From IMG/VR virus record IMGVR_UViG_3300010368_003853, positions 1 to 34,525 of that record: DNA of 34,525 nucleotides; one strand, given 5' to 3'. A program made the translations under genes and the position numbers. The notes below the pieces were generated by a model that worked only from the letters and a program-made list of their open reading frames with translations, ran no database searches and was not told where the DNA came from. This DNA comes from a virus. Positions 6,445 through 11,617 of this stretch are shown here, piece by piece (the first letter of the stretch is position 1; the number at the start of each line of letters is the position of its first letter).

Positions 6445-7629
6445 ATGGCAAAGTGTGATATAAAACCAGTCTCGGCATTTCAAAGTACAAATCTTAGTAG
6501 TAAGATCAATACTTTTAATGAGCTGAGTGATAGAATTCTTAATACATTAGGTTATCCTTTTATTAATATAGAGATTCATCGTGATAGCCTCTATACTAAT
6601 ATTCAGATTGCTGTTGAGATGTTTACTAAGTTTGCTGGGTATACACAAGAGTATCTTTTATTTGATAGTGATTTGTATGTCTTAAACCAAGGCATCAAAT
6701 TAGATCACCTATTTACAATTAATACAAAAGGTACATTTGGTCAAGAGTATCTAGACGGTGTAAAGTCTCCAGATTTTACTAATAGAATTGAAAATAAAGC
6801 AACTAATGCTACATATATAGTTACATCAGCTATACCGTCAACAGCATTTACTACTAGTAGTGCCCTTTCAACCGTCTTTACTAGCGGTAATAACTTATCC
6901 GCAAATGATATTGTTGATGGTACAATATATGATAAGGTTATAGAAGACCTACCAGCACTCAGCAGTTCATTTATAGCACAACCTGTTAAGTCCTTTAGTA
7001 TATTAGGCTCTGCATCAGGAGCCGATTCTCCTAATGTTGATACATCATACTTCAATAGCTATGATTATGATGTAATGGATTACAGAAAGGTTATAGCTGT
7101 CCAGGATTTCGAGGAGGGTACATCATCAGGTGTTAATCAGCTATTTACTATTGAGCAGACAATGGCTCAGCAAACATACTTCAGTTATGCTATGGGTAGC
7201 TATGGATTTGATTTGATTAGTTGGTACGTTCTTAAGGATTGGATGGAGATGCGAGAGAAGCTCCTAGCTACTAGACGTAGTTATACATTCGATGACCGCA
7301 CTCAGATGTTGAGAATGTATCCTCAGCCGAGATCTGGTGGTGGTTCAGCTAGTAGATTCTACGGTGTTGTAATGTGCTCTGTTGAACGCCCTGTAAGAGA
7401 TGTGATTAAAGAGCACTGGGTATACCAATACTCATTAGCGCTAACTAAAATCACAGTTGCAAATATTCGAGGTAAGTATGGTGCAGTGACCTTATTCGGT
7501 GGCGGTAGTTTAAACTCTTCTGATCTTATGACACAAGGCTTAGCTGAGAAGGCTAGTTTAGAATCTATGCTATACGAAGGTGCACCTGGCCTAGGCGACG
7601 CTGAACCACCTTTGTTCTTTGTAGGTTAA
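6445..7629 (+). CDS. Putative neck/connector protein (gp13-like)
   Basis: A 394-residue protein between portal and head-completion genes. Its start (NELSDRILNTLGYPFINIEI, followed by a helix typified by AVEMFTKFAGY) resembles the N-terminus of neck proteins of marine T4-like phages (L..LG.P.INIE...D.I...I..A.E...). A Ser/Thr-rich insertion fills 120-190, and the C-terminal half (RPVRDVIKEHWVYQYSLALTK and IRGKYGAVTLFGG) also fits that family. In T4 the neck proteins gp13 and gp14 seal the portal and bind the tail. Assignment to gp13 is by pattern and context and is not certain. Its stop overlaps the start of the capsid-like small gene (TAATG). Confidence 0.55.
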   Translation: MAKCDIKPVSAFQSTNLSSKINTFNELSDRILNTLGYPFINIEIHRDSLYTNIQIAVEMFTKFAGYTQEYLLFDSDLYVLNQGIKLDHLFTINTKGTFGQEYLDGVKSPDFTNRIENKATNATYIVTSAIPSTAFTTSSALSTVFTSGNNLSANDIVDGTIYDKVIEDLPALSSSFIAQPVKSFSILGSASGADSPNVDTSYFNSYDYDVMDYRKVIAVQDFEEGTSSGVNQLFTIEQTMAQQTYFSYAMGSYGFDLISWYVLKDWMEMREKLLATRRSYTFDDRTQMLRMYPQPRSGGGSASRFYGVVMCSVERPVRDVIKEHWVYQYSLALTKITVANIRGKYGAVTLFGGGSLNSSDLMTQGLAEKASLESMLYEGAPGLGDAEPPLFFVG

Positions 7630-7802
7630 TGAGCAACGAAGCTGGTTATAACTATCTGGATACCTCTTATACAGGTACAAGTGCAGCTTATCTATCCGGT
7701 ATCGGTAATAATGATCCCTATAATGTCTTTAGAATTATCGGCGACAGTGATAGAGGCGTTGCTAATTCTACTGCAGTAGGTGAGCAAGGGCCGTTTGTTT
7801 AA
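7629..7802 (+). CDS. Capsid-fragment-like microprotein, 57 aa
   Basis: An ATG at 7629 overlaps the previous stop (TAATG) and opens a 57-residue frame ending at TAA 7800-7802. Residues 4-26 match residues 178-200 of this phage's own major capsid protein at 20 of 23 positions (EAGYNYL.T.YTGTSAAYLSG.G). The likeness continues, with one gap, through YNV...I...D.GVA. The two DNA segments differ at most third codon positions, so the protein, not the DNA, has been conserved, which argues for function. The matching capsid segment lies in the region corresponding to the inserted (I) domain of T4 gp23. It could compete with or decorate capsomer contacts, or be an immunity or regulatory decoy. It is too short for default gene finders. 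Confidence 0.75.
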   Translation: MSNEAGYNYLDTSYTGTSAAYLSGIGNNDPYNVFRIIGDSDRGVANSTAVGEQGPFV

Positions 7803-7805
7803 GGA

Positions 7806-8258
7806 ATGAAGAAGAAGAAAAAATATAGGCAAGGTATATACAAGCCTATTAATAGAAAGAAGTATGCAGGTGGTTCGGACCCTGTTTATAGATCTAGCTG
7901 GGAGTTAAAGTTCTTTAAATGGGCTGATTCTAACAGTAGAGTGCTTAAATGGGGTAGTGAGAGTATCATTGTACCTTATGTGAGCCCATTAGATGGTAGG
8001 GTGCATAGGTATTTTGTTGATAACTTTATAGTGTTTCTTAATAGAGATAATAAGCCTTTGAAGTATCTTATTGAAATAAAACCTAGCGGGTCTGTATCTA
8101 AACCAACAACAACAAGCTCAAAAAAGAAAACTACGTTGATATACGAGCAACGAACTTGGGTGGTGAATCAGGCAAAATGGGAGGCAGCTAAGCGATGGGC
8201 TGATCAGAAAGGTTATGAATTCCTTATTTTAACCGAAAAAGAATTAGGTATACGTTAA
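7806..8258 (+). CDS. gp4: Head completion protein, gp4-like (PD-(D/E)xK-like fold)
   Basis: A basic 150-aa protein with the pattern of T4 gp4 (gp50): a Lys-rich start, SSWELKFFKWAD (about 29-40), KWGSESIIVPYVSPLDGRVH, a RYFVDNF strand, YLIEIKP (about 92-98), and the helical VVNQAKWEAAKRWADQKG near the end. The WE...D...EIK residues match the TnsA-type nuclease fold reported for this family. gp4 acts late on filled heads, making them competent for tail joining. It follows the capsid-like small gene by 3 nt and probably shares its message; AAGGA abuts the ATG, too close for a good ribosome site. Confidence 0.85.
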   Translation: MKKKKKYRQGIYKPINRKKYAGGSDPVYRSSWELKFFKWADSNSRVLKWGSESIIVPYVSPLDGRVHRYFVDNFIVFLNRDNKPLKYLIEIKPSGSVSKPTTTSSKKKTTLIYEQRTWVVNQAKWEAAKRWADQKGYEFLILTEKELGIR

Positions 8259-10138: not shown

Positions 10139-11617
10139 ATGAATTCAATCCGCCCATCACAGGCTTATATTGACGAATCTAGAGCAGCTTCCCTCTTAGA
10201 AAAATGGGCTCCAGTATTGGACTATTCTTCTAAGTCAGTTGCACCCATCGAAGACAGTCACACTCGACTGAACACAGCAATGCTTCTTGAAAATCAAGAG
10301 CAATGGTGTATTCAGGAGAATGGACCTAACTACACACCAACCAACGGTAACGTTGCTGGCGCAGGTGGTTCCATCGGAACCGGACAGACCACTGGTCGTT
10401 CTGCGTTTGGTACCCCTGGTACCGACGAGTACGCTCAAGGTGACTTCCGTCTCCCGAAGATCTTGATTCCAATGATTAGACGAACTTTCCCCGAGTTAAT
10501 CACTAACGAGATTGTTGGTGTGCAGCCAATGGCAGGTCCAGTCGGACTTGCTTTTGCTCTTCGTTATCGCTATTCTGGGGAAACCCTTGGTACTGGTATC
10601 GACGGCAAAACAGGTGCTGGTAACACTCCTTCTGGTCAAAGCGGTATCCTCGCGGATGCAGCCGGCCAAGAGGCAGGTTACAACTACTTGCAAACTGCAT
10701 ACACTGGTACATCCGCTGCTTATCTCTCTGGTACAGGCGACACTGCGTATAACGTAAATAACCTAATCAGTGAGAGAGACAAGGGTGTAGCTGCTATTCT
10801 CAAAAACTTCGAAGTAACTGGAAACATTCCATCCTTTGAAGTATCATTTGAGAAGACAGCAGTAGAAGCTGGAACTAGACGCCTAGGCGCGCGCTGGTCA
10901 GTTGAACTTGAACAGGACCTTAAAAACATGAATGGTATCGATATCGATACTGAATTAACGAACGCTATGTCGTACGAAATTCAGGCCGAGATCGACCGTG
11001 AAATGTTGGTCCGTATGATTCAGGTTTCACTGGACGCGGGCGAGGGTGCTGGTTACTCCATCTGGAGTCCTGCTTCCGCCGACGGTCGTTGGTTAGTAGA
11101 ACGTAATCGTGATTTCTATCAAAGATTAATCATCGAAGCGAACCGCATTGCTGTACGTAACCGTCGTGGCGCTGCAAACTTTATTGTTGCAACACCACGC
11201 GTATGCGCCATCCTTGAGATGCTCCCTGAATTCCAGTGGGCACCTGTACAAGGTAACGTAAACACACAGCCTGTCGGAGTAGCTAAGATCGGTAATCTTG
11301 GTGGACGTTTCAATGTATACCGTGATACTAGAACAGATGGTAACAACATCGATGCATTAAATGCAGAGAAGCCTGAGTACGCCCTATTGGGTTACAAGGG
11401 ACCTGAGTTCTATGACACTGGTATTATCTATTGTCCGTACATCCCGGTTATGGTTCAGCGCACCATTGGTCCTAATGACTTCGCACCACGTGTAGGCTTG
11501 CTTACACGTTACGGCGTAGTTGATAATATCTTTGGAGCTAACCTCTACTACCACACTATTCTCGTTACTGGACTTGGGGTCTCATTTACACCTGCTTCAA
11601 ACAGCGTGTACTTCTAA
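10139..11617 (+). CDS. gp23: Major capsid protein, gp23-like
   Basis: A 492-residue T4-type major head protein. Diagnostic stretches are the N-terminal LLENQEQWC (49-57), the LPKILIPMIRRTFPELI block (105-121) followed by VGVQPMAGPVGLAFALRYRY, ARWSVELEQDLKNMNGID and the C-terminal RTIGPNDFAPRVGLLTRYG. (I/L)xE sites at 49-51 and 58-60 are candidate gp21 cleavage points that would remove the propeptide. The inserted region (about 150-215) contains the EAGYNYL/YTGTSAAYLSG segment copied in the small gene at 7629. Codon use differs from neighbours, with many CGT/CGC Arg and C-ending codons, as expected for the most highly expressed gene. A strong terminator follows. Confidence 0.97.
   Translation: MNSIRPSQAYIDESRAASLLEKWAPVLDYSSKSVAPIEDSHTRLNTAMLLENQEQWCIQENGPNYTPTNGNVAGAGGSIGTGQTTGRSAFGTPGTDEYAQGDFRLPKILIPMIRRTFPELITNEIVGVQPMAGPVGLAFALRYRYSGETLGTGIDGKTGAGNTPSGQSGILADAAGQEAGYNYLQTAYTGTSAAYLSGTGDTAYNVNNLISERDKGVAAILKNFEVTGNIPSFEVSFEKTAVEAGTRRLGARWSVELEQDLKNMNGIDIDTELTNAMSYEIQAEIDREMLVRMIQVSLDAGEGAGYSIWSPASADGRWLVERNRDFYQRLIIEANRIAVRNRRGAANFIVATPRVCAILEMLPEFQWAPVQGNVNTQPVGVAKIGNLGGRFNVYRDTRTDGNNIDALNAEKPEYALLGYKGPEFYDTGIIYCPYIPVMVQRTIGPNDFAPRVGLLTRYGVVDNIFGANLYYHTILVTGLGVSFTPASNSVYF

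Follow-up and report, generated by a model that had tools for sequence, protein, structure and literature searches.

The 34,525-nt stretch of viral DNA analysed here (the window), which belongs to a T4-like phage, carries an intact gene for a 57-residue protein homologous to one internal segment of the major capsid protein (MCP) encoded further downstream (Table 1). The gene recurs in related phages, where it is accessory and its protein is under purifying selection. We tentatively propose that it encodes a free insertion-domain (I-domain) mini-protein acting in trans on the MCP.

Table 1. Features of the peptide gene, its locus and the MCP in the window, and types of free peptide in other lineages
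Feature	Position	Strand	Size	Evidence or remarks
Free-standing MCP insertion-domain mini-protein (peptide gene)	7629..7802	+	57 aa	ORF, homology, conservation in relatives
Conserved core of the peptide, residues 4-24	within ORF 7629..7802			EAGYNYLDTSYTGTSAAYLSG
Second conserved patch of the peptide, residues 36-45				II, then D, then G.A
TAATG, neck stop and peptide start, one base in common	7627..7631	+
Neck / head-tail adaptor protein, immediately upstream of the peptide gene	6445..7629	+		phrog_211
gp4-like head-closure protein, immediately downstream of the peptide gene	7806..8258	+		phrog_218, PF08722 TnsA-like
MCP, gp23 type	10139..11617	+	492 aa	PF07068 E 1e-89, phrog_138
MCP segment matching the peptide, predicted insertion domain, MCP residues 178-218	10670..10792	+
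L187-type peptide			60 aa
L200/L214/L215-type peptide	80 kb from MCP in 226-kb contig		59 aa
L193/L198/L199-type peptide			47 aa	N-terminal core only, then Cys-rich tail
L170-type peptide			52 aa

The first-pass annotation had described an intact gene whose start overlaps the neck gene stop and which precedes gp4 in the head operon, and this description holds. The frame runs undamaged over 57 codons from ATG to TAA, its start is fused to the neck stop in TAATG, and gp4 begins three bases past its end. The sequence upstream of the start pairs weakly with an E. coli-type anti-Shine-Dalgarno (dG -3.1), and the peptide would be translated by coupling or reinitiation at the neck stop. Because the gene is placed among head genes in the window and in its relatives, the peptide is probably synthesised late and not before the MCP. 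With regard to promoters, the late-promoter motif TATAAATA occurs in the window at a frequency no higher than chance. Of the 39 window ORFs that reach 100 aa or more, 11 have the hexamer TAAATA in the 30 nt preceding the start codon, compared with 1.7% among random 30-mers; the hexamer may serve as a late-promoter element or belong to an A/T-rich leader of the kind usual in the host group. A tblastn search of 50,697 phage records (E up to 1e-5) found no match to the neck protein, which nonetheless fits a PHROG neck profile. The T4-like clade of the window appears to be without a cultured representative.

Realignment recovered the identity originally reported, with peptide residues 4-26 equal to MCP residues 178-200 at 20 of 23 positions, and blastp extends the match to MCP residues 178-218 with 28/42 identical positions (E 1e-14). 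The likeness had been said to continue for about 25 residues beyond the first stretch; it does continue, to peptide residue 45 and MCP residue 218, but only about 19 of these residues are clear and a weak tail follows. The alignment score of 138 compares with a maximum of 62 in 2000 shuffles, and these shuffles, together with the conservation in relatives, reject chance similarity. Two copies only of the capsid segment exist in the window, namely, the peptide ORF and the MCP. Their nucleotide identity is 67% over 26 codons, different codons are used at 13 of the 20 shared residues, and no common run exceeds 8 nt. Both a recent duplication and a DNA cassette by which the capsid domain could be exchanged are rejected on the nucleotide identity and the absence of longer shared runs. 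The original view that the protein has been held by selection, rather than copied recently, is supported by these values and by the low dN/dS reported below.

The window MCP can be aligned to the solved T4 gp23 in two blocks, residues 16-153 with T4 6-139 and residues 217-466 with T4 232-485. Since the segment matching the peptide lies in the unaligned gap between them (T4 140-231), it corresponds, as judged from the alignment, to the insertion domain located in the E-loop. The placement in the inserted domain made by the first-pass annotation thus stands, but not the accompanying statement that this domain contacts neighbouring capsomers in T4, where it bridges molecules inside one capsomer (PMC3185693). 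AlphaFold models reached a mean pLDDT of 38.6 for the MCP and 51.3 for the peptide, too low for a structural reading. The peptide is homologous to the T4 gp23 insertion domain (PF07068), and differs from gp23 in being a separate gene of 57 aa, against 492 aa, devoid of the HK97 fold, both E-loop strands and the N-arm. Pfam returned no PF07068 match for it, nor any other significant one, the sole match being to GH92 with an insignificant E of 0.024; none of the 11 sequences compared with PHROGs, free peptides or segments, matched a family there.

A search for the small frame between the neck gene and gp4 in related phages, as had been suggested, located it immediately behind the neck gene in some two dozen IMG/VR contigs. 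A close set comprises 11 of these (L001-L011), the ORF of L008 extending past the contig end, and a second set comprises L039, L040 and L048-L057, with neck proteins 64-66% identical, plus L114/L208. In every carrier found (36 IMG/VR contigs, among them a few near-identical ones), the ORF is undamaged. Within the window clade, the dN/dS of the peptide is 0.06-0.14, and between the window and the second set it is mostly 0.12-0.19, with one distant pair at 0.29; these are pairwise values on few codons each, which agree across many pairs, a few of them with saturated dS. Among five window-clade sequences compared, core residues 4-24 show zero replacements at a pS of 0.45; L006/L007, also of the window clade, have one core replacement, Y9H. 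Purifying selection on the protein is thus confirmed. Absence or disruption in all close relatives, or a dN/dS near 1, had been named beforehand as what would speak against the original proposal; intact copies in relatives and a dN/dS mostly of 0.06-0.19 are what we found. A chance or non-coding leftover, that is, a decaying partial MCP duplicate, would agree with the shortness of the ORF and its clean absence from some relatives. This explanation is largely refuted by the dN/dS, well below 1; the lack of any disrupted copy, the fixed start and length, and transfer or retention across divergent phages also oppose it, and we regard it as very improbable.

Presence of the gene at this locus is patchy. 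On the neck-protein tree, at least three to four changes between presence and absence, by mobility or loss, have to be placed. Compared with contig L035, which is 84-88% identical in DNA, the window shows a clean insertion of about 171 bp equal to the peptide ORF, and the peptide is missing at the locus in L034-L036. Relative to L041 (94-96%), L039 has a clean insertion of 696 bp right behind the neck stop, with the peptide and an antisense ORF in it. The MCPs of L039, with the peptide, and L041, without it, are identical over 504/504 residues, L041 being a 13.8-kb fragment of a genome that may hold a copy elsewhere; one and the same capsid protein therefore occurs either way. Among 23 whole records searched, those without a neck-junction copy contained at most the MCP match, records of 116-221 kb included. 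On these contigs, which are partial, the peptide gene is accessory and dispensable at the neck-gp4 site. Furthermore, the peptide tree (68 columns) joins L039 with L054, whereas the neck tree joins it with L038/L041, and this discordance suggests transfer of the peptide gene between phages.

In other respects, the neck-gp4 junction is an insertion hot-spot (window 7629-7806; L009-L011, L039, L047, L058-L063, L075-L078, L208). Other cargo found there includes an antisense ORF of 174-177 aa, a desaturase-like ORF of 367 aa, a fibre-like ORF of 302 aa, an 85-aa ORF and a 339-aa ORF that is HNH-like by eye.

The residues that the peptide retains are largely those shared by all MCPs. Six positions are invariant in 37 MCPs (E178, G180, L184, T189, G190 and G216), and their counterparts E4, G6, L10, T15, G16 and G43 are invariant in 19 free peptides, making up 6/8 of the peptide-invariant positions when the Met is excluded. 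The identity of the invariant residues in the two suggests that one contact constraint acts on both the free peptide and the MCP segment. Co-evolution with the phage's own capsid was tested among the neck-gp4 copies and not found, as these peptides fit their own MCP no better than those of other phages (permutation p = 0.78). The same test over all peptides gave a p of 0.009, due to L215 and L198 alone, and in L048, L051, L052, L054 and L057 the own MCP ranks with the weaker matches to the peptide. The initial description of a mimic of the phage's own capsid protein is therefore kept in part: the peptide derives from an MCP insertion domain, but it is not tuned to its own MCP and is optional beside identical ones.

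A role unrelated to the MCP, in which an old sequence is maintained by a new partner, would account for the loss of the hydrophobic, helix-like stretch that follows GVA in the MCP (AILKNF), absent from the peptides and replaced by polar T/S-rich sequence in the window type, as well as for tails that are variable and in one case Cys-rich. We consider such a role quite improbable, since most of the invariant residues are the MCP-invariant ones and the fragment recurs in several lineages.

Beyond the lineage of the window, no fewer than four T4-like lineages contain free mini-ORFs of the same capsid segment, placed in different genomic surroundings (Table 1). They start no more than three codons before the same Glu, so that the left edge recurs (L170, L187, L200/L215, L193/L198). 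A degenerate pattern for free copies (Met, two residues, Glu, then the core) retrieved 35 contigs, of which 12 were newly examined and all proved on translation to be free short ORFs, the others being already known. Moving the Met one residue closer to the Glu retrieved zero contigs; with the Met two residues closer, the pattern matched L170 and, at an internal Met, two full-length MCPs. The L215 peptide aligns over its full length to the insertion domain of its own phage's MCP. The 47-aa peptide (L193 9082-9225 and L198 788-931, both reversed) consists of the core motif, an acidic tail and a Cys-rich end, ECCNSRCGC; TATAAATA lies shortly upstream of its start. Small proteins beside the peptide (L215 4724-5250, L207 1944-2682 and L170 4645-5156, oriented) have N-termini that resemble, by eye, the capsid-targeting sequences of T4, for example MRNKDQILLEEAYSKVISES and MKDKDTQFLYESYQESLTE.

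The peptide belongs by sequence homology with gp23-type MCPs, and in a maximum-likelihood tree built without the core-only L193/L198 peptide, the ten neck-junction peptides form one clade (100/98) nested among window-type MCPs. The L170/L187/L215 peptides group with another set of MCPs, and this topology needs two origins; the AU test does not reject a single one (p = 0.49). Independent origins of the free I-domain peptide are likely on the basis of this tree. Cultured phages yielded no window-type peptide, and the segment of the window MCP type was likewise not found there at the sensitivity used. Each of 421 cyanophage records contained exactly one insertion-domain place and no free copy, a pattern search for cyanophage-type free peptides returned known loci only, and the bacterial genome contigs searched contained no peptide.

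The explanation that we prefer, with rather less than even confidence, is an accessory, trans-acting I-domain mini-protein that acts via the I-domain contact surface on the MCP. A gp23 fragment whose ends coincide with the borders of the E-loop insertion domain would have been duplicated long ago into its own gene and kept as an optional late protein. Taking the position of an I-domain, the mini-protein would attach to adjacent MCP subunits or to a partner of the MCP, and might thereby cap or cement sites on the shell, for instance round a vertex, or tune MCP assembly. That the universal core is conserved while the variable parts of the own MCP are not tracked agrees with a docking site that is itself conserved; it agrees equally with a decoy for a host sensor of that core. 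T4 Soc and Hoc are accessory, dispensable and patchily distributed capsid proteins, which attach to the outer surface of the shell and have no relation to gp23. The peptide gene resembles them, and decoration or cement proteins in general, as a dispensable accessory (absent from L034-L036 and L041), and its patchy presence beside identical MCPs would suit an optional capsid protein of this sort; the peptide is instead derived from gp23. Shell-wide decoration is less easily accommodated, since coupling to the low-copy neck gene would yield far fewer copies than there are of the MCP. Two further observations run against the mini-protein acting as a stand-in I-domain: L193/L198 keep the N-terminal core only, so the whole domain is not always needed, and the neck-gp4 peptides do not co-vary with their own MCP. 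The vertex protein gp24 of T4 is, like the peptide, a gp23 paralogue in a separate gene, and is a probable duplication of gp23 (PMC3185693). It keeps the entire fold and forms pentamers, whereas the peptide is one small domain, dispensable at its locus, and is not gp24-like.

The peptide might instead serve in counter-defence, as a decoy that occupies a host sensor of the I-domain motif of newly made capsid protein without triggering it, and we consider this unlikely. We know of no sensor of this motif. MCPs as such are proven triggers of bacterial immunity, as exemplified by CapRel (PMC9712102), Thoeris ThsB (PMC11312562) and Lit/Gol (PMC3014915). An accessory gene that is patchy among near-identical phages, possibly transferred, and located at a junction taking other cargo would agree with a decoy, as would retention of the MCP-wide motif, and not of the own MCP's variable parts, which is what a broad sensor would call for. 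Conversely, a peptide coupled to the neck gene would be outnumbered by the MCP and make a poor decoy, and its probable late synthesis, no earlier than that of the MCP, is a further difficulty. The Gol peptide of T4, acting with the Lit protease, is likewise a short gp23 peptide active in the infected cell, but it is another part of gp23 without a separate gene, and acts on EF-Tu, triggering host defence; the Gol region that activates Lit lies within gp23's first quarter (PMC3014915). Because the segment matched by the peptide is the gap at T4 140-231 and not the conserved block before it, a decoy directed at Gol/Lit, the one known sensor of gp23, is unlikely.

Another possibility, which we regard as improbable, is an interference factor, a capsid-derived fragment that would poison or slow the assembly of co-infecting phages or satellites sharing the MCP interface. 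The peptide is a fragment of a structural protein bearing only the subunit-contact domain, and its fit to MCPs from elsewhere in the clade equals or exceeds that to its own MCP, although the mismatch of L048-type MCPs can be explained by MCP replacement. The own MCP has the motif too, so self-poisoning would have to be avoided, and no resistance mechanism is visible. A precedent exists in p22/p18 of yeast Ty1 (PMC4599808, PMC8458377), which is, like the peptide, a capsid-protein (Gag) fragment without any other domain. p22/p18 acts in trans on its parent protein, and horizontal transfer and recombination take part in its spread (PMC4599808, PMC8458377, PMC7055915). It is translated from an alternative transcript of the gene for the parent protein and its inhibition of assembly has been demonstrated, whereas the peptide, with no sequence relation to it, is a separate, diverged gene.

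Capsid-derived fragments acting in trans are thus a kind already known from retroelements, and we found none in phages. Literature searches, mostly without subscription papers and hence weak evidence, gave no precedent for a free capsid-domain gene, and there is a substantial chance that the function of the peptide is new. In a broader and rather unlikely scenario, several lineages would have repeatedly split off a mobile I-domain mini-gene that shields new capsid protein from a widespread host sensor of the conserved motif or blocks the capsid assembly of rivals; such peptides would make up a new class of counter-defence or interference factors derived from capsids. Should the decoy explanation be true, the peptide would point to an undiscovered host immune sensor and name the motif that it reads. 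If the peptide binds the capsid, it would offer a naturally occurring inhibitor or cement for gp23-family proteins, from which many abundant aquatic phages build their capsids.
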